A stretch of 64,000 nucleotides of DNA, taken from a virus. This document shows, piece after piece, positions 27,847-47,636 of this stretch. Numbering within the stretch: the stretch's first letter is position 1; each line of letters opens with the position of its first letter. The stretch is from IMG/VR virus record IMGVR_UViG_3300021962_000061, positions 1 through 64,000 of that record. One strand, written 5' to 3'. Both the position numbers and the translations under genes were made by a program. The notes under the pieces are model-generated. The model was not told the DNA's origin. It did no database searches and saw only the letters and a program-made list of their open reading frames with translations.

Positions 27847-28944
27847 TTATTTGTCTTTTAGTCCTAACTCTAGGGTTTGCACTTTATCATTAAGATGTTT
27901 GATCGCTTCAATAAGTAGTGGAACTAATTTACTGTAATCCACTGCTTTATAGCCATCTGATCTTAAGTAAACAGCTTGTGGTGCTACCTTTTCAACATCT
28001 TGAGCAACCAAACCTATATCATTATCTGGTTTTGGGCCCACATTTGTTAAATCAGCAATTGCCTCTTTATCCCAGTCAAATTCAACGCCGTTTAATTTTA
28101 ATATCTTTTCAAGACTATTATCAATTAACTTGATATTTTTCTTTAATCTTTCGTCAGATGTATAATAAGCGGTTACATCACCTGTCGCGTAAATTGCACC
28201 ATTCACGTGCAAAGGAGCTTCTGGGTTAGTCACACCACCAACACCAATTCTTGCTGCTGTGTTTGAAATAAACAATGATGCTGTTGTACCACCAAAATTT
28301 ACATTAGCATTGAATCTTACTTGACCGCTACTATTGGCGTTTACGGTGCCTAATGTTAGTGTATCAATTTGTTGTTCGGTTAGATGGGTTAATCGTGTTC
28401 TTACCCACTTATTTGATGATGTGTCATATACAATTGTATCATAAGCAGAATTTGTAGTGTTAGCATACCCAACATTTGAAGTCAAAAGAAACTCGGCCGG
28501 GTCAAGATCAGTACCCTTAACATTTAAATTTGCAAACGCCATATACCCAGTACTGTTTGCTTTTAGCCAACCAGTAGTGGATGAGTAAGTGGATGATCTA
28601 TCAGCAAATCTAAGTTTTGTTGTTGTATCAATTGTTACGTTACCAAGAGCGCTCAAATGACCAATGGTATACAAATTGTATGAACCATCAACAACAACAT
28701 TCGTACTAATTGTAGCATTAGCACCAGCTGGACCTGTTAATGTGTTATTAATAGTTATTGTATTTGCAATAAAAGTACCAAATAATCTAGCTGTGTAACT
28801 GACTGTTGAGTTGCCAGTATTACTTCCTGTTGTATTAGCAGTAATAACAGCATTACTAATAGTCTGTGCTATTTGGTTGGTAATGGAAATCCAACCTGCA
28901 AATGTATCCGTATTTGCATTTATTTCGGAAATTACTACTGACAT
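27847..28944 (-). CDS. Tail fibre with C-terminal S74 intramolecular chaperone
   Basis: 365 residues. The shaft (1 to about 255) is Asn/Thr/Ser-rich beta structure with NTAARIGVGGVTNPEAPLHV. The C-terminal about 104 residues are an S74 (endosialidase-type) chaperone domain. It has TSDERLKKNIK with the putative self-cleaving Ser263 and nearby Lys, the LNGVEFDW and DIGLVAQDVE blocks, VDYSKLVPLLIEAI and a final coiled coil. Such domains trimerise the fibre, then cut themselves off. The start at 28944 overlaps the upstream coiled-coil gene by 10 bases. Confidence 0.9.
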   Translation of the reverse strand: MSVVISEINANTDTFAGWISITNQIAQTISNAVITANTTGSNTGNSTVSYTARLFGTFIANTITINNTLTGPAGANATISTNVVVDGSYNLYTIGHLSALGNVTIDTTTKLRFADRSSTYSSTTGWLKANSTGYMAFANLNVKGTDLDPAEFLLTSNVGYANTTNSAYDTIVYDTSSNKWVRTRLTHLTEQQIDTLTLGTVNANSSGQVRFNANVNFGGTTASLFISNTAARIGVGGVTNPEAPLHVNGAIYATGDVTAYYTSDERLKKNIKLIDNSLEKILKLNGVEFDWDKEAIADLTNVGPKPDNDIGLVAQDVEKVAPQAVYLRSDGYKAVDYSKLVPLLIEAIKHLNDKVQTLELGLKDK

Positions 28945-30874: not shown

Positions 30875-33800
30875 TTATACATTTCTCAAATTTACTCTAA
30901 GATCGGAGTTCTTGGAATATGGCAATGACCCACTTCTATCACCACCACCAACTACAATAGTATTGTTAGTAGTAGTTGATGAGCTGGCAGTATTTGCATT
31001 CTTAAGAGTAAACACCTGAGAAGTATTACCAATGGAATTTGCATAACCGTTTGACAAGTAGAAGTCAGCCTTAACCAAAACTTTTGTCTCTGCACCAAAT
31101 GTATTGTTTGAATATAATGTCAATATATCATTTTCTACACGTGGTGACGAAGCAATTGAGTTTGACGTTAGACCAGTTATTACCAAGAATGAAGCTCCGG
31201 AACCAGCACTTGTATTTGATGTTGAGTTTGCCAGCACGCTGGAGTTTGAAACTCTAATACGAATCTGGTTAACTGGTTTAATTGTTGTACCAGGTACAAC
31301 ATTGGTATATTCAACATATACAACATCACTTACTGCTGCATTAGCTGTGTTGGCTGTATCGCCATTATTAATCAACTTCAGTGTCGTGCCGCTATCAACC
31401 CAATAATCTGTACCACCTATTTGCAGAACACCATTAATTGCAACTTGAATACTTGTGTTTGTTGAAGTTGTTGATAGAGTAAAGTCATTGTTTGAAGTAC
31501 TATTTGCTACAAACGAATCTGGTGTAGTAATAGTACCGTCTGTGAAATTACCTCTGCCTGTAACTTTTACTAGTACAATGCCTCCAGTTGTATTAGTTTG
31601 GATTGAAGCGTATCCATCTACTTGACCATTAGAGAACTGAATTGTATCACTGTTGGAGTAGTTTGAACCACCTGCTGTTACGTATACCTGTGTGATATTA
31701 GCATACGATATAGCTGGCAAAGGATCACCACTCTGAGTAGTTACTGTCCATACAACATTACCCTGGTAATCAATGGCTGGCTGAGCCAAAATCTTCAGTG
31801 TTGTGTTTGAACCAAGTGACAAGCCAGCATTATATGTTAGCATGTTATATGGTAGTGTATCTACTGCTAAACCAAGACCAATATCTGTTGTGTATTGAGA
31901 CCAGTCGCCATATGCTTTTAGGTCAGAATAATCATCAAACAAACTTGGAATTAATCTTAGCAGCATTCCCTCTGGATTTGTTGGTGTACCAGGAGCTGCA
32001 ATGCCACCAGTCTGCAATAGTTTTGTTAGTCTAATTTGTTTAGCAAATTCTCTTGTTGCACCAGCTGATGTTGTTATTGCCAACGACACAATCACATCTT
32101 CAACCGAATTCAATGTATCGAAGGATATCGTATGGGGCCCAACACCTGTAGCGGTATTTGAAGAGCATGTAATCAAACCAGGAACAGCACCAAAGTTCCA
32201 TGAGTAAGATGTAATTGTACCTTGGTTTGTATAGCTGTCATCAGTAAATGTTAGTACAAATGTACCATTAGCAGTTATGCCATTTGTAACAACTGATGTT
32301 ATAGTTGTATTACCTGTAAATGTATAATGAGCAAACAAGTTAGATGATGGTGTTGTGTTACCTGGTTGTGGATTGCCTGGATTTTTAGGTGGATCATTGG
32401 CTGAAATGTCAATTGTAAAGAATGTCTGCGCAATGGATTCATCTGAACCAGCAGCTAGTGATTCGCGATTAACCAATGTTAATTTGTGAACACCAACCTT
32501 AATTGTAGCAGCTGGAAGAATAAATTTACCAATAATTTCACCACGCGAATCACTAACTAATGGTGTACCCCATGGTGTAGTTCTTGTAACGAATGTTTCA
32601 TCCTGAGCATTAGGTGTTGAACTTAGTTCACCCAATGCTGCTTGTGAGGTCAAATTGTATTGATTATCAATAAACAAATAGTGAGTTGTATTTGGCTTCA
32701 AGCCATAGGCCTTAAAGGCAAATACACTTTCTTTTGCTTGATACAATACACTTGGTGACATTGTAACATTATCATTGTCGCCAAGAACATCGTTCAAATC
32801 AATCTGCTTAGATGTAGCAATAGGTGTAGATGTTTGATCTCTAATTTCATTAAATGCTTTACCACTTGTATCGCGATACTGGAACAAGTCACCTGCGCCG
32901 CCTATGTACATATAATCTGTTGGGTCAATATTTAAGCGCCAGAAGCCATACTGGGCTATACCCGGCACTATCGAGTTTTGACCTGAATTCATATTGTTGT
33001 ATGCAAGTGAAGGTCCATTGGTACCAGTAACAGCTGCTGGAGGTGCTAGGTAGTCAACGCGAGTCGACTTCAATGGTCTTAGATCAATGGTACCCGCCCA
33101 AGACAAAGGAACACCCGATACGTTCAATGGTTCAGATGCGTTAGGCTGCTCTAAGAATACTTCTTCCGTATACGCAAGAGTAATCATACTACCTGTTGCT
33201 TGAACATTAGAGTATGAGTTTGTATTAGTATCAAATTCAACATCAACAATTTCTGGATGGAAAGGTGGTCTTAGTAAACCATTCTTTTCATCAATAGCTG
33301 CTCTATAGTCTGGATCTTCAGTTCTACCAAACACATGACTGTTGAATGGATCAACAAAGAAACCATTTTGGAATCTTTGATTACCTGAGCTATCGGCAAT
33401 AGTTGTTTGTAATGCAACCTTTTCTAATAAGTTTAAAGTTGTATAATATTCTAGTCTCTCAATTCTCTGTTCAAGAATCGAAATGTCACGCATTGTGAAA
33501 CGCTTATGTGTTAACAAATTTAGCTGAGTGATGTAGTGGAATTTAGGCTTATTGACGAATTGTTTTTCGGCATCTGTTAATGAAGGATATGGAGGAATAT
33601 CAACTTCAGCAATATTCAACACATCAGAGTTCATTGGAGATAGTCTTGGTGCTACATCCGGCAGCCCTTCTTCGACTTGGAACAACTTATCGCTTGTTAA
33701 TACAAGTCTATCCTTTCTACCTAGGTAGTATGTAAAGTTAGATGATAGGACTGATGTTGGGAAAGGATTGTAATTTGTTGTATTGGAATTGAATGTGTTA

Positions 33801-36697
33801 GTAACAGGTGGGTTAACTGTAGCTGTTGTAAATTCAGCTGTTAGGTTAGCTGTATTTGATTTGTATGGTCGGAAGTCAATTACATCTCTTAGATCATAGC
33901 TTGTATTTGCTGTAGAAGAGAAGTACTTTGGAATTTCCCATGTTCTGATATACAAACTTGCATTAGCATTTAATGTGTCGTTTGCTGGATAAGAATCAAC
34001 AGAGAAGAAACCTTCACCAGTTGTAGCATTTACAACAAAGCAATCAAATTCAACCAACATATGGACGTTAGCTAAACTGCCAAGACCTGACAATGGGTTG
34101 ATCGATAGGGTTGCATGGTCATAATGGGTATCATTTTGGCCATCATTTAGTGCAAACTTATTAACCTGGTTTTGTAAGATATTAAAGTTGGATGAATTAG
34201 TGCCAAAATATACACCTGTTAGGTTGAATACATCCGGTATACCTAAATTCCACGGACCAGTTTCTCCACCAGCATTATTTGCTGTATTAATAATTACAAC
34301 TCTCTTTCTATTAACATCCTTCTTCAATTCGCTTGCTTCATTATTGTAGGCATAGAATCTTACAGCTACATTAGAAGTACCAACATATGTGGAGCCTAGA
34401 TTAATTGTTGCTGTTTCTCTATTAACAGCTACTGACAATGATCTCTTTGAACCAGCTGAAGTGTTAAGAGCAATATGTGATCCTTCTACATGTATTCTTC
34501 TATATGTGTTTGCCACTGCTGTTACGGCAGAATCTACAGTCATTGTTGTTGCGTCTGTAATTGCAGTGATTCTTCTTGTTTGGCTTGCACCAATAAATTC
34601 AATATATTCACCTACAACAAAGTCTTCATTAAATGTTGTTGTAGTACCTGTAATAATATTAGTTGCGGATGCTGCAACTGTGCCTGCTAAGTTGGCAGAC
34701 GAAGCATTTGCATCTAACAAGACTACATCTGCTAGTAGTTTAGAAGAATCAGAACCGTCACTGAAGCCAACGATGCCCTTCAATGCGCCAATACCAAATG
34801 TTATAGTGCCACCGGAAATTAACTGGGCAGTTGTATTTGCTGCTGTATAGAAATAATTAGTATCAAACACGTTGTTTGAATTTCTCAGATTTTTTACAGC
34901 ACGAGCATTCAGATTAAATAGCAGTTGTGGTACAGATGATTCCTTAACGACAGCTAGGCTGTTATCTAGAACAATGTCGGCAAATGCCTCTGTGTTAGTT
35001 GAGTTTGCGGTACCACTGTGGTAAACAATTGATCTAATGTCCTGTGGATTAGATCCATTATTCATTCTGATATTAAACAAATACAATCTATACTGGGAAG
35101 TTGGTTTGCCTTTTGTGCTATCAAATGTGTCGTTAAACTTAACAGCTCTCACATTAGCGTAGCCAATGATTGAACCTGTTGCAGCGGCACCAGGAGATCT
35201 ATTTCCTGACACAGCATCTTGAGCTGCTGAGTATAAGACCACCTCTGTTGATTGGTTGACAGGGAAATAACCCCTAACCTCATCCACAACATAATAATTA
35301 CCATACGATACAGTAATTAATGCTTCATTTACAGATAATGTATCTGTGCCTCTTCTACCAACAACATTAAGGTTGTCTAGCAATTCAATTCTCTTACCCT
35401 TGACATAGGCAAGACCTTGTGTCACTTCATATACCATATTATTGGTGCTAGTGAAGTCTGGTTTTGTTGTTACACTAAATGGTTTGATTACATAATGGCC
35501 TGATTCTTCGTATGTTCTTTTAGCTAGTTCTTCACCCAGTGTGTTGAACTGAGTATCTGTTCTTTGGAACACAGGTCCATTATTTGAAAATTCTACAATT
35601 GGGAATGCAATATCAGTGTTTGAAATTGTATTTGCGCCAGTCTTATTACGCGAAATCAACGTTGATGTTAGCTTTAGTCTATGAGCACCGGGTGCATTGA
35701 TATTTGGTGTACCAGAAGCATTGTCATATAAGGAGCTGTCTGTTGTTTCTTTTACAATTTCTTCACTAGTATTAAAATATAATACCTTACCAGCAGGATC
35801 TCTTCCATTTTCATTGACGATAGTCAAATGTGACTCAACTTTAATAAAATGACCTTTGTGGAAAACAATACCAGGGCTAACAGCTACACCATAAGCAAAC
35901 CCTTTTGAGTCATAAAGGGATGCGTTTGTAGCTAAGACTTGAACTGAGTCAATAAATGAGTTAGAGTATGGGATTAAATTAATACTGTCAATTGTTGCTG
36001 AAATATTTGTGTCTGTTGATACAACTACTGTTTCACCAGCTGCAAATTTCTTTCTTACATTTCTTAATTCAACAAAGGAGCCGGAACCATTAGCGTATGC
36101 ATTAACAATAAAACCACGTGCAAGTGATGTTTGGTTAATAATTCTTGCGCCAGTTGGAAAATTCAAGCTATTAGCTGTTGAAGCAGAAGTTATCTTCAAA
36201 ACAGTCTTATCAATGTAGGTCTTGCCAGGTATGTAAATATTTAAATATTCACCTTCAGCAAATGTTCTTTCGTTGTTGCTACCTGGTTGCGTATACTTAA
36301 CAAAAAATCTAGCAGGATTTGCTGTTGCTGAAAACCCCTCTCTTGCAGCAACAATTTGTGCTACAACACCAGTAGTATTACCAACAGCAATGGCATTAAC
36401 AAACTGAGTGTTTGTGGATGATAGTGATGTATTTGTAACAAACTGATCAGCAATTGAAACAAAATCAATATCTGGAAGATAGGAAATACCACATCCTTTA
36501 ATAATTGTGCCATCTTTAAAGATGTGCTGGCCAAATCTCTCAATTTGATTTTGTAGAATTGATTGAGCTTGGTTTAGTTCACGAGCTTGGACGGCAACGG
36601 ATGGTCGGAATAGAATTCTGTGGAAATTCTTATTCTCATTGTAATCATCAAAATACGGGGACGCATTTAATGTTGTATTTGCTATGTCAAGGGCCAT
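30875..36697 (-). CDS. DUF4815-type giant baseplate/fibre protein (1940 residues)
   Basis: The N-terminus FHRILFRPSVAVQARELNQ, with QNQIERFGQHIFKDG, is the diagnostic start of the DUF4815 family of T4-like marine phage virion proteins. The middle contains a helical block (HKRFTMRDISILEQRIERLE) and a beta domain near residue 1400. A PKD-like segment (about 1500-1600, SYSWNFGAVPG) is followed by a GGSNYSNSD domain shared with gp18 and the gp7-position protein. 'AINGVLQIGGTDYWV' is a common fibre unit. Probably connects the baseplate to fibres. The extra C-terminal about 450 residues are unusual. Confidence 0.85.
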   Translation of the reverse strand: MALDIANTTLNASPYFDDYNENKNFHRILFRPSVAVQARELNQAQSILQNQIERFGQHIFKDGTIIKGCGISYLPDIDFVSIADQFVTNTSLSSTNTQFVNAIAVGNTTGVVAQIVAAREGFSATANPARFFVKYTQPGSNNERTFAEGEYLNIYIPGKTYIDKTVLKITSASTANSLNFPTGARIINQTSLARGFIVNAYANGSGSFVELRNVRKKFAAGETVVVSTDTNISATIDSINLIPYSNSFIDSVQVLATNASLYDSKGFAYGVAVSPGIVFHKGHFIKVESHLTIVNENGRDPAGKVLYFNTSEEIVKETTDSSLYDNASGTPNINAPGAHRLKLTSTLISRNKTGANTISNTDIAFPIVEFSNNGPVFQRTDTQFNTLGEELAKRTYEESGHYVIKPFSVTTKPDFTSTNNMVYEVTQGLAYVKGKRIELLDNLNVVGRRGTDTLSVNEALITVSYGNYYVVDEVRGYFPVNQSTEVVLYSAAQDAVSGNRSPGAAATGSIIGYANVRAVKFNDTFDSTKGKPTSQYRLYLFNIRMNNGSNPQDIRSIVYHSGTANSTNTEAFADIVLDNSLAVVKESSVPQLLFNLNARAVKNLRNSNNVFDTNYFYTAANTTAQLISGGTITFGIGALKGIVGFSDGSDSSKLLADVVLLDANASSANLAGTVAASATNIITGTTTTFNEDFVVGEYIEFIGASQTRRITAITDATTMTVDSAVTAVANTYRRIHVEGSHIALNTSAGSKRSLSVAVNRETATINLGSTYVGTSNVAVRFYAYNNEASELKKDVNRKRVVIINTANNAGGETGPWNLGIPDVFNLTGVYFGTNSSNFNILQNQVNKFALNDGQNDTHYDHATLSINPLSGLGSLANVHMLVEFDCFVVNATTGEGFFSVDSYPANDTLNANASLYIRTWEIPKYFSSTANTSYDLRDVIDFRPYKSNTANLTAEFTTATVNPPVTNTFNSNTTNYNPFPTSVLSSNFTYYLGRKDRLVLTSDKLFQVEEGLPDVAPRLSPMNSDVLNIAEVDIPPYPSLTDAEKQFVNKPKFHYITQLNLLTHKRFTMRDISILEQRIERLEYYTTLNLLEKVALQTTIADSSGNQRFQNGFFVDPFNSHVFGRTEDPDYRAAIDEKNGLLRPPFHPEIVDVEFDTNTNSYSNVQATGSMITLAYTEEVFLEQPNASEPLNVSGVPLSWAGTIDLRPLKSTRVDYLAPPAAVTGTNGPSLAYNNMNSGQNSIVPGIAQYGFWRLNIDPTDYMYIGGAGDLFQYRDTSGKAFNEIRDQTSTPIATSKQIDLNDVLGDNDNVTMSPSVLYQAKESVFAFKAYGLKPNTTHYLFIDNQYNLTSQAALGELSSTPNAQDETFVTRTTPWGTPLVSDSRGEIIGKFILPAATIKVGVHKLTLVNRESLAAGSDESIAQTFFTIDISANDPPKNPGNPQPGNTTPSSNLFAHYTFTGNTTITSVVTNGITANGTFVLTFTDDSYTNQGTITSYSWNFGAVPGLITCSSNTATGVGPHTISFDTLNSVEDVIVSLAITTSAGATREFAKQIRLTKLLQTGGIAAPGTPTNPEGMLLRLIPSLFDDYSDLKAYGDWSQYTTDIGLGLAVDTLPYNMLTYNAGLSLGSNTTLKILAQPAIDYQGNVVWTVTTQSGDPLPAISYANITQVYVTAGGSNYSNSDTIQFSNGQVDGYASIQTNTTGGIVLVKVTGRGNFTDGTITTPDSFVANSTSNNDFTLSTTSTNTSIQVAINGVLQIGGTDYWVDSGTTLKLINNGDTANTANAAVSDVVYVEYTNVVPGTTIKPVNQIRIRVSNSSVLANSTSNTSAGSGASFLVITGLTSNSIASSPRVENDILTLYSNNTFGAETKVLVKADFYLSNGYANSIGNTSQVFTLKNANTASSSTTTNNTIVVGGGDRSGSLPYSKNSDLRVNLRNV

Positions 36698-36709: not shown

Positions 36710-38761
36710 TTAGAACGTAATTACAAGTCTGACTTGTTCGTTTGTAGTATTTGATCTTTGAATTGGTAAAACATTTTGTATGTACAAAATTTCACCGGAA
36801 TATAGTTTAGCATCAGGAATTGTTGTTATATAGGTATTACCAATCACCTTAGAGTATTTAGCTCCCGAAGCAGCAATGGTTGGTGTAGCTGCATCCCCTA
36901 CAACATAGCCAACACCTGTTATTAATGTGTCGTTGACAAATGTATTAGCACTGCTTATACCACGAGTTTGATCCTTATCCAGTCCTGTTAATACAATAGT
37001 TGAACTGTTGGAAAATGCTACTTTAGCCATTATCTGGGACCCGCCCCCAGAATTATTAGATCCAACCACATATTCACCTGGAATTAATGACTGAGTTGCG
37101 TCTTGCGTTGCTGTTACTGCTACTGTTTGGTTAAAGAATGATCCTGAAAATCTTGGTCTAATTGTTAAAGCTTCAGCTACAACAGTACGTGAGAACGGAG
37201 ATTTAATCTTCAAACTTGTATCACTAACAACTTCAGTTACTTCTTTTTCTTCGTCCAAATAAACAATATAATCGCCAACGTTTACCTGGGCTGTAAAATA
37301 TGTTCCTGTTCCAGTAACAGATGTGCTATCAGCAACCAGATCCATTGTCCCTGTTCCTGTTATTGTGTTTGCAGCAAGAGGATTTTTAATGATACCTACA
37401 GATCTAAACTCAACTTCTGATGAATGCGAAAATGTTGCTGAATTGGAGAACTGCATACCAATACCAATAGATTGGCAGTATAATTCATCCACTACATTGA
37501 AGCCATGGCCACCAGGTGGTGATATTACTGCTCTTACTACTGCACCACTACCAAATCCTGTGGACGTCTGAATGTTTACATTAGCTTGCTTATAATTTTT
37601 GCCAGGATTTACAATCTCAATTTTTTGAATGCTACCAGTAAATGTAGTGTTTGAAACATTCTGCATTATAGCATAAGCAATACAATTTGATCCCGTTTTA
37701 GAATTAATCTTTACATACGGTGATATAATATATGGCTGATTATTAGCAACATCTCCTGTGTTAAATGGTGTTTTAACTATAGCAAAATTACCACTGCTGT
37801 TAGAAACATATTCACGAATTTCTTTAACGTATGTTTGATTTGTTGTGTCGTTAGTAATAATTAATGCACAGTTTGAAAAGAATCCATTTGTGGATGAAGA
37901 ATCGCTGTCAATTCCAATAACAAAATTATTATTGTTTAATGTTGAAATGGTTCCACTATCAGCTGGATAACTTGAGCCATTTGCTTCAACTGCAAAGTAG
38001 AAAATGGATCCTTCAATTGCCGCATTTTTAACATTTGCATTTTGAAAAATGGGAATAAAGTTATCTGTTGCAAATGTTAGAAAATCACTGTTATTAATTT
38101 CATACAAAAATAACCATCTATAACCATCCGACTCCTTAGGTGGATATCCCAGCTCAATATGTGTAGGTTCAATTGTTGACCTTCCATCATTGTTATTTTC
38201 AATACATTTGTAAACTTTATTTTCTGATGTTAATACGTAAAAGCTTTTTTCAATTAACTGTGTATCTTTATCGTCATATTTTGAATACAACGTGTTTGCT
38301 TGCCAGACAGTTTTTGAAGCCATTGGAATAACATTATTAGCAGTAATTTTTCTGCCAAACATCATTTCTTCATGCATGAATATGTTACTTTCATATTCAT
38401 TATCAATTGTATTTGCAGCAGTTGCTTCATCATCTTCATAAGGGGACTGTCGAGCAGCAAACACATAATAATTGTTATTAACTAACTTACCTTTCTTATA
38501 TGTGTTTGCTGAATATACACTACTAAATGATGCTGCTGTGGATAGATGTGTTGCATTAGTAATGCTTATAATTTGACGGGATTCAGGACCAATAAAAATA
38601 CGGTCATTGACCGTAACCTCGTTAACAAAATTTGTACCAACCCCAACCACAGTTGTGGATGTGGTATTTACGGTAATTGTACCTGATAAGTTAGCACTTA
38701 AAGTATTAGCAATAGAATCTATAAATGCGTCAACTATATTGGACTTGAATCTTGTTAACAT
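36710..38761 (-). CDS. 8: Baseplate wedge protein gp8
   Basis: 683 residues from the ATG at 38761; the frame stays open to a TTG at 38773, which I did not choose. Family hallmarks: YYVFAARQSPYEDDEATAAN, then NIFMHEEMMFGRKITANNVI, KVYKCIENNNDGRSTIEPT and DGYRWLFLYEINNSDFLTFAT. T4 gp8 has 334 residues and marine relatives are longer. Two copies of a 'TSTxVxGxGTxF...GDxI' domain (residues about 30-100 and 440-510) flank the gp8 core. gp8 forms wedge dimers in the baseplate. A late promoter precedes it. Confidence 0.88.
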   Translation of the reverse strand: MLTRFKSNIVDAFIDSIANTLSANLSGTITVNTTSTTVVGVGTNFVNEVTVNDRIFIGPESRQIISITNATHLSTAASFSSVYSANTYKKGKLVNNNYYVFAARQSPYEDDEATAANTIDNEYESNIFMHEEMMFGRKITANNVIPMASKTVWQANTLYSKYDDKDTQLIEKSFYVLTSENKVYKCIENNNDGRSTIEPTHIELGYPPKESDGYRWLFLYEINNSDFLTFATDNFIPIFQNANVKNAAIEGSIFYFAVEANGSSYPADSGTISTLNNNNFVIGIDSDSSSTNGFFSNCALIITNDTTNQTYVKEIREYVSNSSGNFAIVKTPFNTGDVANNQPYIISPYVKINSKTGSNCIAYAIMQNVSNTTFTGSIQKIEIVNPGKNYKQANVNIQTSTGFGSGAVVRAVISPPGGHGFNVVDELYCQSIGIGMQFSNSATFSHSSEVEFRSVGIIKNPLAANTITGTGTMDLVADSTSVTGTGTYFTAQVNVGDYIVYLDEEKEVTEVVSDTSLKIKSPFSRTVVAEALTIRPRFSGSFFNQTVAVTATQDATQSLIPGEYVVGSNNSGGGSQIMAKVAFSNSSTIVLTGLDKDQTRGISSANTFVNDTLITGVGYVVGDAATPTIAASGAKYSKVIGNTYITTIPDAKLYSGEILYIQNVLPIQRSNTTNEQVRLVITF

Positions 38762-38782
38762 TCTATTTCCCAAACCTTACTT

Positions 38783-41700
38783 TTAATTATTTATATAAAC
38801 GGTATCATAATTTGTTTGGATAGCCGTTTCATATGCAGTTGTAGTTGTTTTGTCAGTTACTATGCTTGTAGCTGTTGTAACAGTTGTATCAAGATCAGTA
38901 TCTTTATATACTGTATCAAATGTAGTAATAACTTCTGTTGTTCTTGTGGTATCTCTTACGTATTCAAACGTCTGTGTATTAGTTAGAATATTTGTTGCTC
39001 GACTGGTTAATTTACTACCTGTTAAAAATACAGTTGTAAGTTCAACGTCTGTTAAAGTATCAAACTCGGTAATTCTATCCTTATAATCAATAACAGTAGT
39101 CGTAGATTTTGATGTTAACTGTTGTGTTTGGCCAGAAGCTGTATTATACGTTGTAGATGTTAAAAACGAGGTTGATGTCTGTGTCGATACAGCAGAAAGA
39201 GTGGATTTTGATGTAGCAGTTGACTTTGTAGTTAGCAAAGCGGAAACAGTAGTTGAAGATGTTTCAAATGCTGTTGATGTGATTGATGTAATTGTACTTG
39301 TTGTCTTTGATGTAGCTGTTTGGAATTGTGTAATCAGTATAGAATCAGTCACTTTGGCTGTGTCAGTTAAAAATGCCGTTGTTGTAGTTGTTGAAGTATA
39401 TGTGTCTCTTGTGGTATTAAATGTTGTTGATCCAAAAGGCGTTGTTAAAAATACTGTATCATAATCTGTTGAAGTTGTCTTACCACCCTCATAGCGAGTG
39501 AATGCAGTAGTGGTTGATTTTGATGTGGATGTTGTTACATCTGTGTCAAGTGCTGTGTCTTTATAAACCGTATCAAATGTAGTTGTAGTAGCTGCAGAAG
39601 ATTGGGTAATAGCAAACGTTGTATCAAATGTAGTGGACGTTGATAATGTTGTGTCATACCCAGTTGTTGTGTTGAATGTTGTTAATGTGTTTTTAACAGT
39701 GGATGTGGTAACATCTGTATCCAGCGAAGTATCTTTATAGGTTGTTGAACCTGTGGTGCTTGTTAGCTTGGATGTTGCTGTACTCTTTGTTGTACCAAAT
39801 GTAGTCAGTGTATTTCTAGAAGTGGACAATGTTGTATTTGTATATGTACTTCTTGCAGTTTCAAATGCAGTAGAATATGCTGAAAGATACTGAGTGGTTG
39901 TATTAAATGTAGTATCATAAACAGTATTGTATACTGTTAATGTTCCTACTGTGGTGGCTGTATCCTTTGATGTTTGGCCAGGGTTTGTATTAATAACTGT
40001 ATTGAATGATGTGGTTGTAGTACTAGATGTAAAGAACCCACTTGAAGTGACATAAGTTGTGTTTGTTGTCTTAGATGTACTAATTGTGGTATCAACAAAT
40101 GTTCCAGCCCCAGAGTTTGTTTGATATGAAGTGTTATACGAAGTTGTTGTTCCAATTGTAGTTAAATACACTGTACCAATAACAGTCTCAAAAACTGTGG
40201 TTGTATCATAATCACCTGACATTGGATATAGTGTATCAGTTATAATGTCAGTAGATCTTGTTGTTGCCTTTGATGTTACGCTTGACGTTATTGTAATTGT
40301 GCCCTTAGATGTAAGACCCAGGGATGTAGCAGTTGTTTTGGATGTAGAAGTTGTAACATCTGTTTCAAGAGCAGTATCTCTAAACAGTGTTAAGAAAGTT
40401 GTAGCTGTACTTGAGGTTGTTATATAAGATGTTGTTGTTTGATTGCCTGTATCATAACCAGTATCAAATGCAGTTGATGTATTTACAGATGTCGAAAACA
40501 CAGTATCAAATGTTGATGTAGTTGATTTGGTTGTTGCATAATTTGTAGCGTACGCAGTTGCAGTTGTCTTAGCTGTATCAATATTAGTATCGTAGGTTGT
40601 AGAAGATGTAATTACTGTACTTGATAATGTGTCAAATGCTGTTGTTGTATTTTTAGAGGTAATAACATCTGTTTCAATACTTGTTATATAATCAGTATCA
40701 TATACTGTAGATGTTGACTTAGATGTTATGGATGATGTTGAAGTATTACGGGCTGTATTGTATGCAGTTGCAAATTCTGTAGAAGAGTCATACACAGTTG
40801 TAATTTCTGTACCTCTTCTTGTATCGTATGTGGTATTAATAACTGTACTTGTTGAGTATTCAGTAACGCGAGACACCGTAGCAAAGTTACTTACAAATAC
40901 TGTAGATCTACTGGTTGTTGTTGGCTTGTCAGTTGCTTGTGAAGTATTGAAGTATGTTATCACCTCAGTACCCTTAGACAAAGCTGTTGCTCTAGATGTT
41001 GATATGGACGTGTCAAATGTTGTTGATGTATCAAATTGTGACACATATCCAGTTGTAGTGCTCTTTGATGTACTGTACTGGGATGCATACTCAGTATCTA
41101 CTACTGTGTTGTAAAGACTTGAAGTCGTTCTGGCAGTGGCCTTCACAAGGTCTGTGTTGCGACTATCACTCAATGTTGTTTCATAAGAAGTTGCAATTGA
41201 TGTTGATGTGTCAATAGTTGTATCTGCAACACTGTCATATGCTGTAGTTGTTGATACGTTTGTTGATAAAGATGTGTTGAACGCAGATGCTGTAGTTTTT
41301 GAGGTAGCAACTAACGTATTATAAGTTTCGTATGTTGTTACAAAAACGCTACTGTAAACTGTGTCGTATACTGAAGTAGTTGCAATTAATGTTGGGTTTG
41401 TAGTAGCAACAACTGTGTCACGCAATGTGTTTCTGTTTTGGAACACAAACTCTGTGTCAGTAACTTTGGATGTTAAAACATTTGTATCTACAGAAGTTAT
41501 AATACCAGCAACCGTTTCATATTGCGTTTGATACGTTGAACTGTAAACAGTTTGTGTAGCTAGGATAACATATGTTGTTGTAGTGTTAACATCTGTATCC
41601 CGTGAGGTTGAGCGGTTTGTTGTACTAGCAAATGTAGTAGCCGTGTTTCTACTTTCATCCACACCGGTATCATAAGTTGTTGTAGTATCAAAAATTGATG

Positions 41701-43882
41701 TTGTAGATTTACTTGTAGATTTAGTTGTTGCATAACCTGTGTCGTAGGTAGTGTTAAACACTGTTGCAGTAGAAACATTTGTTTGTCTAGTTGTAAATCT
41801 ACCTGTGTTTGTAATCTTTTGTGTGATAAATGTTGTGTCAATAGTTGTATCAAATACAGATGTTGTATTTTTAGATGTAGCAAAAATAGTATCAAAGACT
41901 GTTGTAACAACACTAGATGTATCATATCCTGTTTGATAAGTTGTATCAAAGGAAGATGTGGTTGATTTGGAAGTTGTCTTAGTAGTGTTAATTGTTGTAT
42001 CAGTTAGAATTGCTGTATCAAACGCACTTACAACAGTTGTGTCGGTGCTATACGCTGTATTAAATGTGCTTAAAATAGTTGTGTCAAATGTACTTACAGT
42101 ATCAAATGTGGTAGTTGTATCAAACGTGGATGTAGTATCATAAGCAGTTGTAGTTGCCACAATAGTAGATGTAGCTTTACTTGTAGCAACACTAGTTGTT
42201 TTGGATGTTGCAGTTGCTCTAGATGTTACAATTACCGTGTCATAAGTTGTATTGTAGGTTGTAGTTGTTGTGTACGTTGTGTTAAACAGTACTGTTGTCT
42301 GCGTTGATCTACCTGTTGCTACTGCTGTACTATAAGATGTTGTGTATGTAGTTGTTGTTGATACGGACGTAGCTCTGGATGTTGCAAAAGCAGTTGAAGT
42401 AGCTTTATTTGTAGCTTTTGAAGTTTCAAAAGTTGTTGTTCTTGCTGTATTAAAAAAGAACGATGTGTCTCTAATTGTATTGGGTACCACAGCTGTAGTA
42501 CCAAATGTTGTGTTAAAAAAGAACGATGTATCTCTAACAGTGTTATTTAATACTGTTGTTTGTGTAGATTTTGATGTTGCTGTTTGTTTATTTGCTTCAA
42601 ATACTGTTACGGTATATGTAATAAGCTCCTCTTGGAGTTCGGGGTCAAAATAAGATGATACGGTTTCTCTAGAAGTAATAAAGGCTGTAACCGTATTGAA
42701 GGTTGATGTTGTATTGAAGAAGAATGTTGTCTGGAATGTAGTTAATAAAGCTGTATTTGTTGCTTTAGATGTATTAAAAAAGAATGTTGTCTGGAATGTA
42801 GTAAATAAAGCTGAGGTTGTTAAAAATGTAGTTGTTTTAGATGTATTATATACTGTATTAAACACCGTTGATGTTGATGAGGTTGTATCATATACAGTTG
42901 AATAGCTTGAAGTTGTAGCTTTAGAAGTAGCTGCACTGGTGTCAAATATGCTCAAGTATGATGTTGTTGTTGCCTTTAAACTGCTTGTTGCTTTGGTTGT
43001 ATCAGTGGATTTAGATGTCGATTTACTAGTAGCAAAACTTGTGTCAAAAGATGTTGTGGTATTGAAAGTAGTTGTATACTCAGAATCATAAGACGTGGTT
43101 GTAGCTACAGCTGTATCTGTGGATTTAGATGTACTTGTAAGCTTAGATGTTTGTGTTGATTTTGAAGTGCTTGTAGATACAGTTGTGCTATAAGACGTTT
43201 CTCTTGATGTACTTTTTGTTGTATCCGTTGAATAAGATGTTTCTCTAGTTGTTTCATAGGCAGTAGTTGTTTGATATGATGTCTCGTAAGTTGTTGTATA
43301 AGACGTTGTCGTAGCTTGATTTGTACCTAGAGTTGTTGTTACAAGTGTATTAAATGTAGTAGTTGTGTTCTTAGATGTGGACTGGGATGTATCAAGCGTA
43401 GTAGATGTTATCTTTGTTGTAATATAGGCTGTCGATCGTGATGTATTATAAGCTGTTACGGTATCAACAAGGGTTTCATATGCCGTAATGAATATGCTGG
43501 AAGTTGTCTTGGATGTACTCTTTGTCGTTAATACAAAAGTATCAAACGTCGTATTAAATACAGTTGTTGTTGACTTAGATGTAGAAGTAGCTTTGGATGT
43601 GTCAATATTAGTTACATACGCTGTAGTCGTTGTGGATGATCTGTCTGTATTGTACAGCGTAATGTATGTTGTTTGAGTTATATAAGCTGTTGCAATTTCT
43701 GTTTGTCTTTGCTGTTGTATTTCAAAAGAAGTTTCAGTAGCAGTTCTCGGAATTGCTTTAGTAATTTCAATCTTGGCACCGGAAGCGGGAGCTGTAACAA
43801 ATACAACATTGTTACCAGTAATAGTATAATTAGTACCTAGTACTTGCGTTATGCCATTGACTTTAACAACTATGCTGCTCAT
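38783..43882 (-). CDS. Thr-rich tetrapeptide-repeat virion protein (1699 residues)
   Basis: A short N-terminal domain, IVVKVNGITQVLGTNYTITG followed by VVFVTAPASGAKIEITK, is the common phage-fibre entry unit. From about residue 65 to the end the protein is phi-x-T-T/S tetrapeptides, rich in Thr, Ser, Asp, Tyr, Phe and Lys, with larger modules such as KDT(A/S)LDTDVTTST repeated three to four times and FQTTFFFNT. Only a 'YFDPELQEELITYTV' break (about residue 410) interrupts. It shares modules with the 662-residue protein at 14212-16200. It overlaps the gp7-position gene by ATGA, so it is made with baseplate proteins. A long wedge-attached fibre is likely; no known family recognised. Confidence 0.75.
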   Translation of the reverse strand: MSSIVVKVNGITQVLGTNYTITGNNVVFVTAPASGAKIEITKAIPRTATETSFEIQQQRQTEIATAYITQTTYITLYNTDRSSTTTTAYVTNIDTSKATSTSKSTTTVFNTTFDTFVLTTKSTSKTTSSIFITAYETLVDTVTAYNTSRSTAYITTKITSTTLDTSQSTSKNTTTTFNTLVTTTLGTNQATTTSYTTTYETSYQTTTAYETTRETSYSTDTTKSTSRETSYSTTVSTSTSKSTQTSKLTSTSKSTDTAVATTTSYDSEYTTTFNTTTSFDTSFATSKSTSKSTDTTKATSSLKATTTSYLSIFDTSAATSKATTSSYSTVYDTTSSTSTVFNTVYNTSKTTTFLTTSALFTTFQTTFFFNTSKATNTALLTTFQTTFFFNTTSTFNTVTAFITSRETVSSYFDPELQEELITYTVTVFEANKQTATSKSTQTTVLNNTVRDTSFFFNTTFGTTAVVPNTIRDTSFFFNTARTTTFETSKATNKATSTAFATSRATSVSTTTTYTTSYSTAVATGRSTQTTVLFNTTYTTTTTYNTTYDTVIVTSRATATSKTTSVATSKATSTIVATTTAYDTTSTFDTTTTFDTVSTFDTTILSTFNTAYSTDTTVVSAFDTAILTDTTINTTKTTSKSTTSSFDTTYQTGYDTSSVVTTVFDTIFATSKNTTSVFDTTIDTTFITQKITNTGRFTTRQTNVSTATVFNTTYDTGYATTKSTSKSTTSIFDTTTTYDTGVDESRNTATTFASTTNRSTSRDTDVNTTTTYVILATQTVYSSTYQTQYETVAGIITSVDTNVLTSKVTDTEFVFQNRNTLRDTVVATTNPTLIATTSVYDTVYSSVFVTTYETYNTLVATSKTTASAFNTSLSTNVSTTTAYDSVADTTIDTSTSIATSYETTLSDSRNTDLVKATARTTSSLYNTVVDTEYASQYSTSKSTTTGYVSQFDTSTTFDTSISTSRATALSKGTEVITYFNTSQATDKPTTTSRSTVFVSNFATVSRVTEYSTSTVINTTYDTRRGTEITTVYDSSTEFATAYNTARNTSTSSITSKSTSTVYDTDYITSIETDVITSKNTTTAFDTLSSTVITSSTTYDTNIDTAKTTATAYATNYATTKSTTSTFDTVFSTSVNTSTAFDTGYDTGNQTTTSYITTSSTATTFLTLFRDTALETDVTTSTSKTTATSLGLTSKGTITITSSVTSKATTRSTDIITDTLYPMSGDYDTTTVFETVIGTVYLTTIGTTTSYNTSYQTNSGAGTFVDTTISTSKTTNTTYVTSSGFFTSSTTTTSFNTVINTNPGQTSKDTATTVGTLTVYNTVYDTTFNTTTQYLSAYSTAFETARSTYTNTTLSTSRNTLTTFGTTKSTATSKLTSTTGSTTYKDTSLDTDVTTSTVKNTLTTFNTTTGYDTTLSTSTTFDTTFAITQSSAATTTTFDTVYKDTALDTDVTTSTSKSTTTAFTRYEGGKTTSTDYDTVFLTTPFGSTTFNTTRDTYTSTTTTTAFLTDTAKVTDSILITQFQTATSKTTSTITSITSTAFETSSTTVSALLTTKSTATSKSTLSAVSTQTSTSFLTSTTYNTASGQTQQLTSKSTTTVIDYKDRITEFDTLTDVELTTVFLTGSKLTSRATNILTNTQTFEYVRDTTRTTEVITTFDTVYKDTDLDTTVTTATSIVTDKTTTTAYETAIQTNYDTVYINN
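38788..38795 (-). promoter_or_regulatory. T4-type late promoter upstream of gp8
   Basis: Exact TATAAATA on the minus strand, 26 bases upstream of the gp8 ATG, overlapping the last codons of the Thr-rich gene that ends at 38783. Confidence 0.75.
38810..43690. repeat. Imperfect 12-bp tandem array (about 4.9 kb) encoding phi-x-T-T units
   Basis: Same type of repeat as at 14230-16050, on the same strand, with segmental duplications such as two near-identical units around 42715 and 42775. Confidence 0.8.
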
Positions 43883-45840
43883 GCCCCACCAGGAATAGAG
43901 TATGCGTTTGTACTACCATCACCAACAAAACCCCTACCAGAATAGCCTGTTGTTGCTGATGTTACCTCACTAGAAATCAATACACGACCAAACTTTTCAA
44001 CACCTGCAGGGTGCCACAACTTTCTTAGTAAGTCACTATACTTGTCAAATACAATAGAGGATCTTACTTCGTATGAAAAATCTTGGTAGTAAAAACTATC
44101 GTGTATGTACTTATCTGAGTTTAAAAATCCTCTAGTGGATTTAAATCTACCTTCACCTTCACCTTGCTTGAGCACCTCAAGAGTACCTGTACCTTCTAGT
44201 TGGGTGTTTGCCAGTGACACAAGAGTAACAAATTCATTTGGCTCATATCCAAACCCCGAATCAGTAATTTTAACAGCACCAACAGCGTCTGTACCAAATC
44301 CTGTTAATGCTGTAATTACAGCATTGTTGCCAAGATAACCATTACCACTTTCTCCTCTGCCAGCTTCGTGTTGAACATCAAGCAACTTCAAAGTTGATAT
44401 AATAGTATCTACTGCTTTCACTTGAAGATTAGTGGTATAGCCTGAGCCAGGGTTGACAGTTTTTAGACGTCCAATGGTGCCCACTAAATAGTTTTGAAAT
44501 CCTAAAGCATCCTTCAGAAGTGTATCAAAACCAGCTTCAACATTGGATGATAATCCATATCCATTTGCTGTAGGATAAGACAATTGGCCAATTATCATAT
44601 TAGTGACATTGTTAGCTGTACCAATATAAGTTGTTGTTTGCCCGAGAGCTGAAATTTTTAGTGGAGATGTAAATAGGTTGTGCGTGTCTACTAATGTTTG
44701 GATCGCCAAGTTTGCTTCTTCCCCACCGCCGGCTATTTCAGCATCAAGTATAGCCGCCACACCAACACTTGGACTACTTGATGTATTAATAACACTGATC
44801 ACTACAGTGTTTGCGTTTAAGAAACCATTACCACCATTTGTTAGTGATATTGTTACAATACCACCCACAGTATTTGTACTGACGTTTGCTATTGCATTAA
44901 TAGAGCCGTTTGAAAGAATAACAATATCACTGTTGTCATAGCCAGAACCACCCGATGTTATGATTACATTTGTTACAGGACCTGTAATTTGAAATTCTGT
45001 GTTATCAATAGTATAGCCGCTACCACCATCAAGTAATCTAAAACTTACTGTGCCGTCTCTTTCTTCTAATTGTGTAACAACTGCTTTACACCCCTTGCCC
45101 TTACCTCTAACTTCTAGCTCATCTCCTAGATTAAAACCAAACCCTGTTTGGATTCCTGTTATTGATGTGGCTGAACCAATGATTTGAGGGGAGTTGATAG
45201 CACTAACAGCGGGTTCCGTGCCTTCAGGTAAGCGGGCTTGGTCAATTAAAACGGTTTCATCGTTTCGGAAGTTTCCTTCAACATCTGTCAAATAAAATAT
45301 GTTAATGTTTTTATTATTAATATATTTTGTTTGAAATCTTTCTACATAAGCTCTTGCACCAGATACACGCCCAACAATAAACTCACCAACAAATAATGAA
45401 TTGAAAGGCTTATAGGATACTTCAAGGTAGATGTTCTGCCCCCATTCACCATCAGAAAGTCTGAAGACATCGTCACCTGGTTTGTATACACTTATACTAT
45501 CACCAAATAACAATTGAAATAATAGTTTTAAACCACGCTCGGTTCCCTTTGAACCATATACTTCTTTAATATGTTTCTGGAGTAGCTGCTTATCGCCTGA
45601 AATATCTTCAGGAATTGGAAACATGTATTTTTTCTTAAACTCATTAATAAAGACATCAATTGTTTTATCAATATCTCTATATTCCAACAATCTTCTTGAA
45701 TCATAAAGAATTTGATCTTGAGATTCTAACCACTCGAAGTATGCTTTAACAAAAGCAATAAACAACGGACCTTCATCTCTGTAGATAGAAGGAAATTGAT
45801 CGGCAATAAATGGAGAAATGAATCTTTCTATTTGCTTCAT
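43879..45840 (-). CDS. Baseplate wedge protein at the gp7 position
   Basis: 653 residues. The N-terminal 130 residues (ISPFIADQFPSIYRDEGPLF, then a KAYFEWLE helix, SRRLLEYRDIDKTIDVFINEF, HIKEVYGSKGTERGLKLLFQLLFGD) define a family of T4-like and related myovirus baseplate proteins. The rest is beta-rich with a GGSGYDNSD domain (about residues 300-370) and a GSGYTTNLQVKAVD unit. It sits between gp6 and gp8, where T4 has gp7 (1032 residues), so it is the likely gp7 counterpart. Its ATG overlaps the gp6 stop (TAATG). Confidence 0.75.
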   Translation of the reverse strand: MKQIERFISPFIADQFPSIYRDEGPLFIAFVKAYFEWLESQDQILYDSRRLLEYRDIDKTIDVFINEFKKKYMFPIPEDISGDKQLLQKHIKEVYGSKGTERGLKLLFQLLFGDSISVYKPGDDVFRLSDGEWGQNIYLEVSYKPFNSLFVGEFIVGRVSGARAYVERFQTKYINNKNINIFYLTDVEGNFRNDETVLIDQARLPEGTEPAVSAINSPQIIGSATSITGIQTGFGFNLGDELEVRGKGKGCKAVVTQLEERDGTVSFRLLDGGSGYTIDNTEFQITGPVTNVIITSGGSGYDNSDIVILSNGSINAIANVSTNTVGGIVTISLTNGGNGFLNANTVVISVINTSSSPSVGVAAILDAEIAGGGEEANLAIQTLVDTHNLFTSPLKISALGQTTTYIGTANNVTNMIIGQLSYPTANGYGLSSNVEAGFDTLLKDALGFQNYLVGTIGRLKTVNPGSGYTTNLQVKAVDTIISTLKLLDVQHEAGRGESGNGYLGNNAVITALTGFGTDAVGAVKITDSGFGYEPNEFVTLVSLANTQLEGTGTLEVLKQGEGEGRFKSTRGFLNSDKYIHDSFYYQDFSYEVRSSIVFDKYSDLLRKLWHPAGVEKFGRVLISSEVTSATTGYSGRGFVGDGSTNAYSIPGGA

Positions 45841-47636
45841 TATTCTCTGATACCATTTACGGTTACAGTAAGATATTCGTCACTGAGCTGTAATATTTTA
45901 TTTGCTTTTGTTTCAATATCAAAATTTTGTGTCTTAGCATATATGCTAATGTATGACCCGTCAAAATCTTCGTATGTTATTTCACTGATAGTTAATAATC
46001 CTGTTGCATAATCAATTGTACCCACTTTATCAGCTAGCAATACAATTTCATTATTAATTACCGCAACTACCATCAAGTTACCTTGACCATCATCCTTTAT
46101 TCTTGCCTGATAATCTACATTGCCAATACTATACGTGAATACAGAAGTTTCAATTGAAGGTTGAGTAGTTTCATAAATTTTTCTTGTTGTTAGATTTTCA
46201 GTCTTGATTTGATTTTCAAACGAGAATGAAACTCTTGTTGCCACACCCTTCTCTATAATAACTTGTTTGACTAATCTTAATTGGGTATTATTGCTGATGA
46301 TAGCGTCTTCACTATCATCTATTGCTTTACATAGTTTGGAGAATCTTAAATCTGACCCAAACTTTTCAAGATTATCTGAACCCCAAGTTAGTATTGTTGA
46401 CTCAACAAGCGACTGGATATCTCTTGCTGATCTACTTGTATTATTGATGTTGTAAAGAACATTGGTTACTACTTCTGCTAGAAAATAATCTGGATCTACT
46501 ACTACAGGATCAATTGATATCGATGTTCTTTCCTTCAAGAAATTATAAATTTGTGTTTTTAATGAAGCAGGTAACTTGGTTGTACCAATTGGTTTGGCTG
46601 CAACAATTACCTTACCATACTGCTTTGGTTCCGTCTCTTCACCACCATATGCTGTCACAACTTGGAGAGATGGGAATTCTTGTCTTGTTAAGATAATAAA
46701 ATCTTCTACAGTAACAGCCCTATTCTGAGTTGGGAAGTATCTTGGAGCATTAAATTTAATTTCATTATCTGTCTCGTGTTCTGCACCACCTTGAGCTGCC
46801 GTGACAGTTGTTACAGTAATACCAGTATATCCATCAATTGGTGTTGGTGCAGTGAATGTATTGACACCATTACCATCAATGCCATTGGTTTCTCTATAGT
46901 TAACAGTGATAACATTGCCATCCACCAATTTTTTACCAATGCTACCATTACCAAACACAAGCTCAAACAAATGGTCTTCAGCACCTTGAACAAAGAATAT
47001 CTCAGCAGTGCTATCTAAGCCAAATAGGAATGTCTCTTTATTCCATGTTCGCTCAGTTGTTGAGCTCGTAGAATCTTTAACAGTTACGCTTATTGATGAA
47101 GTATCAACATTAGCTGATTGTAGAAGATATCTTGCTGAGTTGTTAGCGATGAATATTTCTCTTACGATATTACCTTCATACACACCAACGTTGGCAGCTT
47201 TATAAACGCCGTTCTCTGGTCTAATAACTAAGGTTTCGTTTGTTGTAAAATAGTAGGTTGTACCATTTTCTGTCCTACCATTAATTTCATAATACTTTGG
47301 TATTGTGATAGAATCAGGGGAATCAGTGGGCACAACTGTAAAATTAACGTAGGCAACGGCTGATGTTCTTGATCTTGGGGTGTAATTTAACTCTTTAGAA
47401 TGCGATACAATTGATTCCCTAAGTGTTGCTGTATCAAGAAACATTTCGCTGCCTACCATGTTGAGGTAGACGCCATTCATATATGTGTTATAAGCTAACA
47501 CATCTAATAATACAGAAAGATTGGACCCTTCAAAATCGTAGTCTTTAAAAACATCTTGTTGGGATAAAAATGTCTTTAGTCTAGATTTATAGTTTTGAAA
47601 ATCTAACTCAGTAGTTGTTAAGAAACCATTAGCCAT
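45840..47636 (-). CDS. 6: Baseplate wedge protein gp6
   Basis: 598 residues (T4 gp6 has 660). The N-terminal LDFQNYKSRLKTFLSQQDVFKDYDFEGSNLSVLLDVLAYNTY and EMFLDTATLRESIVSHSKEL are classic gp6 / J-like baseplate features, followed by DHLFELVFGNGSIGKKL. gp6 forms the ring that joins wedges to the hub. Position beside gp25 is conserved. Confidence 0.95.
   Translation of the reverse strand: MANGFLTTTELDFQNYKSRLKTFLSQQDVFKDYDFEGSNLSVLLDVLAYNTYMNGVYLNMVGSEMFLDTATLRESIVSHSKELNYTPRSRTSAVAYVNFTVVPTDSPDSITIPKYYEINGRTENGTTYYFTTNETLVIRPENGVYKAANVGVYEGNIVREIFIANNSARYLLQSANVDTSSISVTVKDSTSSTTERTWNKETFLFGLDSTAEIFFVQGAEDHLFELVFGNGSIGKKLVDGNVITVNYRETNGIDGNGVNTFTAPTPIDGYTGITVTTVTAAQGGAEHETDNEIKFNAPRYFPTQNRAVTVEDFIILTRQEFPSLQVVTAYGGEETEPKQYGKVIVAAKPIGTTKLPASLKTQIYNFLKERTSISIDPVVVDPDYFLAEVVTNVLYNINNTSRSARDIQSLVESTILTWGSDNLEKFGSDLRFSKLCKAIDDSEDAIISNNTQLRLVKQVIIEKGVATRVSFSFENQIKTENLTTRKIYETTQPSIETSVFTYSIGNVDYQARIKDDGQGNLMVVAVINNEIVLLADKVGTIDYATGLLTISEITYEDFDGSYISIYAKTQNFDIETKANKILQLSDEYLTVTVNGIRE

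Follow-up and report, generated by a model that had tools for sequence, protein, structure and literature searches.

What kind of protein is encoded by a 5.1-kb gene whose product is nearly half threonine and serine and that lies among the baseplate genes of a T4-like phage? The gene is found in a 64,000-nucleotide stretch of DNA, here called the window, which is part of an 89.6-kb virus record. As the initial annotation had reported, its product has 1699 residues; the gene is one open frame on the minus strand with an ATG start. The composition given there, about half Thr/Ser, also holds, as a residue count gives 576 Thr and 224 Ser, or 47% of the protein.

The gene order around this locus is that of a T4-type baseplate-wedge operon and is composed of gp6, a gp7-like gene, the Thr-rich gene, a gp8-like gene, and the gene of a DUF4815 protein (Table 1). 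By synteny, the DUF4815 protein occupies the position of the VrlC/VlrC-like gene in phages DLP_6 and phiM12. Elsewhere in the window (27847-28944), a tail-fiber-like protein ends in a Peptidase_S74 chaperone domain, and the phage therefore has conventional fibers too. The gp7 frame and the Thr-rich frame overlap by four bases. A programmed frameshift joining them was considered, and no obvious slippery heptamer was seen by eye in this overlap. Separate, coupled translation of the two genes is therefore preferred.

Table 1. Features of the Thr-rich gene and its neighbors (window coordinates).
Feature	Coordinates	Strand	Evidence or description
gp6 baseplate wedge protein	45840..47636	-	phrog_219, E=5e-170; Pfam Gp6-like
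gp7-like baseplate wedge protein, 653 aa, presumed anchor	43879..45840	-	phrog_17744 baseplate wedge subunit, E=6e-137; PF23786
Last 17 codons of gp7 (GFVGDGSTNAYSIPGGA)	43882..43932	-	First part of split tail-fiber domain
ATGA overlap of gp7 stop and Thr-rich gene start	43879..43882	-	Same in the window and nine homologs
Thr-rich protein, 1699 aa, probable baseplate appendage	38783..43882	-	Single open frame, ATG start
N-terminal region, residues 1-60 of Thr-rich protein	43703..43882	-	Later part of a common phage tail-fiber domain
Repeat body, residues 61-1699 of Thr-rich protein	38786..43702	-	Two-residue-parity Thr/aromatic/basic pattern
Conserved 300-residue block, residues 765-1064	40691..41590	-	Equal length in the window and 7 of 8 homologs aligned
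gp8-like baseplate wedge protein	36710..38773	-	phrog_438, E=8e-72
Baseplate-region protein, 1940 aa, DUF4815	30875..36697	-	PF16075, E=1e-48

The Thr-rich protein has no PHROGs match at E<=0.001 (best 0.6) and no Pfam match at E<=0.1, nor at E<=1. The best hit of a PDB profile search is a designed barrel (E=0.077), with no convincing sequence relative among solved structures. A tblastn search of the phages collection with the whole protein gave no match, probably because the low-complexity filter masks the repeat, and relatives were collected through the neighbor genes and the N-terminus. A literature search for a Thr-rich phage repeat found no published description.

Homologs occupy the same slot between gp7 and gp8. 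Thr-rich proteins of 2004-2275 residues are encoded there in the related viral contigs L001, L002, L008, L010, L021, L022, and L023, and at least the start of the Thr repeat is present in 17 distinct contigs. In L002, L008, L010, and L022, a glycine-rich segment is inserted mid-protein, and it matches PF21722 (Gly_rich_2) in L002 and L022. The window protein carries no large inserted binding domain. In other viral contigs, L011 through L015, gp7-like proteins reach approximately 2900-3130 residues; their C-termini are greatly extended but not Thr-rich, and the extension in L011 contains glycine-rich runs.

The repeat had been described as a phi-x-T-T tetrapeptide array, a description of which the regularity stands and the tetrapeptide array does not. 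Over the real residue order of the window protein, the 2-phase and 4-phase cyclic models improve by 325 and 584 nats, vs. 8-15 and 30-38, respectively, over shuffles. Thr autocorrelation falls from 0.23 at lag 4 to 0.04 at lag 8, and the four-residue phase slips along the chain. A plain tetrapeptide parsing scores 681.9 against 561.6 +/- 13.8 for shuffles, yet its phase drifts, and a grammar of two-residue parity was adopted instead. Further autocorrelation peaks are found at lags 10, 14, 18, 28, and 32, and the averages are positive at even lags and negative at odd lags out to ~190 residues.

A fit to five proteins gives the repeat two faces. The first is made up of Thr (52%), Phe, Tyr, Lys, Arg, Ile, and Val, and the second of Ser, Thr, Ala, Asn, Asp, Val, and Gly. 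The alternation between them is kept at ~99% per step, and the four-residue phase slips by two residues about one-quarter of the time, at T-x-T marks. These marks are preceded by K/R in 47-61% of cases and followed by F/Y in 60-70%. The resulting [K/R]-x-T-x-T-x-[F/Y] marks are mostly spaced 6, 10, 14, or 18 residues apart, within a range of 6 to 22. The four-residue rule is thus a local description only, and the conserved feature is the two-residue alternation. An in/out alternation of this kind is expected of beta strands, and beta structure is favored by the parity alone.

Comparison of homologs indicates where selection acts on this pattern. Across homolog pairs, identity is 89.5% at face Thr sites, 65% at bulky face sites (the commonest swaps are Phe-Tyr and Lys-Arg), and 51% on the opposite face. 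Where the window and a relative both have Thr, the codon is the same at a rate of 0.41-0.49, and 0.43-0.49 is expected by chance. The Thr pattern is therefore held at the protein level, as Thr is kept while its synonymous codons are near saturation. The repetition does not extend to the DNA of the gene, where the arrays detected by TRF are all short, at 2-3.5 copies.

Length changes in the repeat follow the same parity. Indels between homologs are mostly even, with lengths of 2, 4, 6, 8, 10, 12, and 54 residues, and are not multiples of one coil. Pairwise counts in the repeat are 229 even and 34 odd, compared with 35 even and 24 odd in gp7 and 14 even and 33 odd in gp8; these counts are non-independent, and in divergent pairs an aligner will tend to open even gaps when it pairs Thr with Thr. 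Largely free of this bias are only the approximately nine indels in the well-aligned repeat of the close relatives L001, L008, L010, and L021, all of which are even. Odd indels among these relatives are confined to the glycine-rich insert and to stretches that align poorly. The conserved block (Table 1), which begins in the window at an aligned position, is constant in length although indels are frequent elsewhere in the protein. The exception is L023, which has a 33-residue insertion.

A second arrangement of the repeat is found in Stenotrophomonas phage DLP_6, whose gp6, at 48% identity, makes it the nearest cultured phage. Here, the Thr repeat is the C-terminal part of gp7 itself (AMQ65900.1, annotated as a baseplate wedge subunit). 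The repeat region is ~750 residues long, including an inserted domain that interrupts it. Two contigs, L106 and L107, have the same fused architecture; their best segment shares 47% identity with DLP_6. The fused repeats obey the grammar of the window protein, with T lags of 4, 10, 14, and 18 and few parity flips. Their insert is an ELVTNGTF...GW...WDNISVKE-type domain that recurs in other phage proteins; it has no Pfam match, and we read its motif as lectin-like, i.e., a possible carbohydrate-binding jelly roll. Covalent fusion to gp7 is not found in the window or its homologs, where the repeat is a separate gene. The Thr repeat is absent from the gp7 relatives of Cr30, phiM12, RHph_I1_18, OC, and pf16. 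The text of the DLP_6 paper does not mention threonine or describe the repeat, names gp7 once, in a table, and no virion proteomics was seen in it. Because the repeat is covalently fused to gp7 in DLP_6 and the two contigs, it is likely to be present in virions.

In the window and its homologs, the link to gp7 appears to be made by a divided domain. The N-terminal region of the Thr-rich protein carries the motif VxVNGxxQxxGTDYTxxGxxVxF and is similar to tail-fiber domains of cyanophages and Melnitz phages. A domain of this type is also present in a protein of an archaeal virus, Methanocaldococcus fervens tailed virus 1 (L020). Residues 1-45 fold confidently alone, with a block pLDDT of 78-88 over residues 1-40 (AF2). 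The fiber-type N-terminal domain proposed earlier does exist, but only its later part lies on the Thr-rich chain. In the window and nine homologs, gp7 ends in a GDG-containing segment that finishes in PGGA, e.g., YIGDGSTTTFAIPGGA, and in L004 the segment is GDGELTTFAIPGGA. The next gene, overlapping by ATGA, begins MSxxxVKxNGxxQ. Elsewhere, the domain is contiguous (GDGST...VNGVxQ). Among 64 other phage proteins that carry its second part, a simple G-D-G-S-type pattern immediately precedes that part on the same chain in 38; in most of the others, visual inspection shows a variant of this pattern.

Read most simply, the end of gp7 would complete the tail-fiber domain and dock the Thr-rich appendage, and we infer from this one Thr-rich chain per gp7. 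In T4, gp7 is a monomer and is present in six copies per tail (PMC3004832). There is probably one Thr-rich chain per wedge, and six appendages per virion would be expected if gp7 stoichiometry is as in T4.

The fold of the repeat was approached with AlphaFold. Block pLDDT is ~23-41 over residues 51-400 in a model of residues 1-400 (16 sequences) and ~21-38 in a model of residues 765-1064 (9 sequences). Both models contain low-confidence strands only and were built from shallow alignments. The Thr-ladder beta-solenoid suggested in the initial annotation is not supported by repeat pLDDT values of ~21-41 or by indels that do not come in fixed coil lengths. Confident disorder, which would have spoken against that fold, was not obtained either, as a low pLDDT from shallow alignments is ambiguous. 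Using standard rises, the repeat body would measure ~45-55 nm if coils of 14-18 residues were stacked into a solenoid and >500 nm if the chain were extended.

A monomeric rod, in which a Thr-ladder beta-solenoid has coils of ~14 or 18 residues, is an unlikely form of the repeat, and the spectrum does show power at ~14 residues with harmonics. In the fused lineage, the T signal at lags 14 and 18 matches that at lag 4, and anchoring to a monomeric protein favors a single-chain fold. However, AlphaFold often recognizes regular solenoids and gave no confident fold in either region. Changes in length do not come in whole coils, and together with unit spacings of 6 to 22 residues they do not fit one fixed coil; a single 14-residue coil is contradicted on the same grounds. 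In addition, K/R on the same face as F/Y is awkward for a closed core.

Most tail fibers are trimers, and an obligate oligomer would fit the failure of single-chain AlphaFold. A parallel trimeric beta fiber, in which parity arises from strands along or around the three-fold axis, would more easily accept a two-residue insertion at any level, and the N-terminal domain, although only part of it is on the Thr-rich chain, is typical of fibers. The fused form argues against this arrangement, as it puts the repeat on gp7, one monomer per wedge in T4, and a trimer would then have to draw its three chains from separate wedges. We consider such a trimer quite improbable.

The low pLDDT throughout the repeat, the high Thr/Ser content, and the tolerance of length change are also what would be seen in a largely disordered, extensible tether, i.e., a polar chain whose spaced aromatic and basic stickers bind weakly to host surface polymers. 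Disordered stickers would not need parity, yet parity is strict over hundreds of residues, indels are mostly even, and about 90% of face Thr is conserved while the other face drifts. A tether of this type is accordingly given little credence. A nucleotide-repeat artifact or a decaying gene, which the low-complexity protein sequence might suggest, can be dismissed for practical purposes, as the frame runs without a stop for 5.1 kb in the window and for more than 6 kb in homologs, the DNA is without long repeat arrays, the slot is conserved, and near-saturation at synonymous sites alongside conserved Thr contradicts it.

The Thr-rich gene probably encodes a long tail appendage that is anchored to gp7 and has a beta-structured repeat, serving as a spacer or scaffold toward the cell surface. 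Most likely, this is an undescribed kind of tail appendage. In the proposed mechanism, the products of gp7 and the Thr-rich gene would join non-covalently by completing the split tail-fiber domain. The repeat body would then reach from the wedge toward the cell, with Thr and F/Y/K/R on one face and small polar residues opposite, and would be built so that residue pairs can be gained or lost. The glycine-rich or lectin-like domains inserted in relatives could contact the host. In the window phage, which has no insert, contact might be made by the Thr/aromatic/basic surface or by other fibers. A more specific version, held only tentatively, is a new kind of fiber made up of a single very long beta chain in residue-pair register, with a Thr/aromatic/basic face, docked on the baseplate of a contractile tail through the split domain, one per wedge.

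For a long repeat protein with no recognized family, gp7 offers a testable place and DLP_6 a culturable model. The two arrangements suggest a route to tail appendages by fusion to gp7 in one lineage and by a separate gene docked through a split domain in another. Should it prove ordered, the pairwise register of the repeat would amount to a simple design rule for protein fibers of great length.

Several known systems resemble parts of this locus. T4 gp7 shares its position in the wedge gene order and its wedge role with the neighboring anchor protein; to our knowledge, it has no such Thr repeat. The long and short tail fibers of T4 (gp34, gp37, and gp12) are, like the proposed Thr-rich appendage, long and thin, belong to the baseplate, and attach through an N-terminal region. 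They differ in sequence, and each is a trimer whose attachment site is at gp9 or at gp10/gp11 (PMC3004832 and general knowledge), whereas the Thr-rich protein appears to be gp7-linked, probably with one chain per wedge. Bacterial ice-nucleation proteins are Thr-rich beta-solenoids of 16-residue repeats (PMC9418140). Like the Thr-rich repeat, they have Thr and Tyr arrayed along a single face of a proposed beta structure, and the Thr-rich repeat differs from them in its spacing of 6-22 residues, with no fixed 16-residue coil and no confident solenoid prediction. A further close system is the C-terminal region of DLP_6 gp7, which has the Thr parity, the T lags of 4, 10, 14, and 18, and the K/R before and F/Y after T-x-T of the window protein, as well as the placement of the repeat between the gp7 core and gp8. 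In DLP_6, the repeat is covalently part of gp7 and no split tail-fiber domain is seen, whereas in the window it is a separate gene with an ATGA overlap and a split domain.
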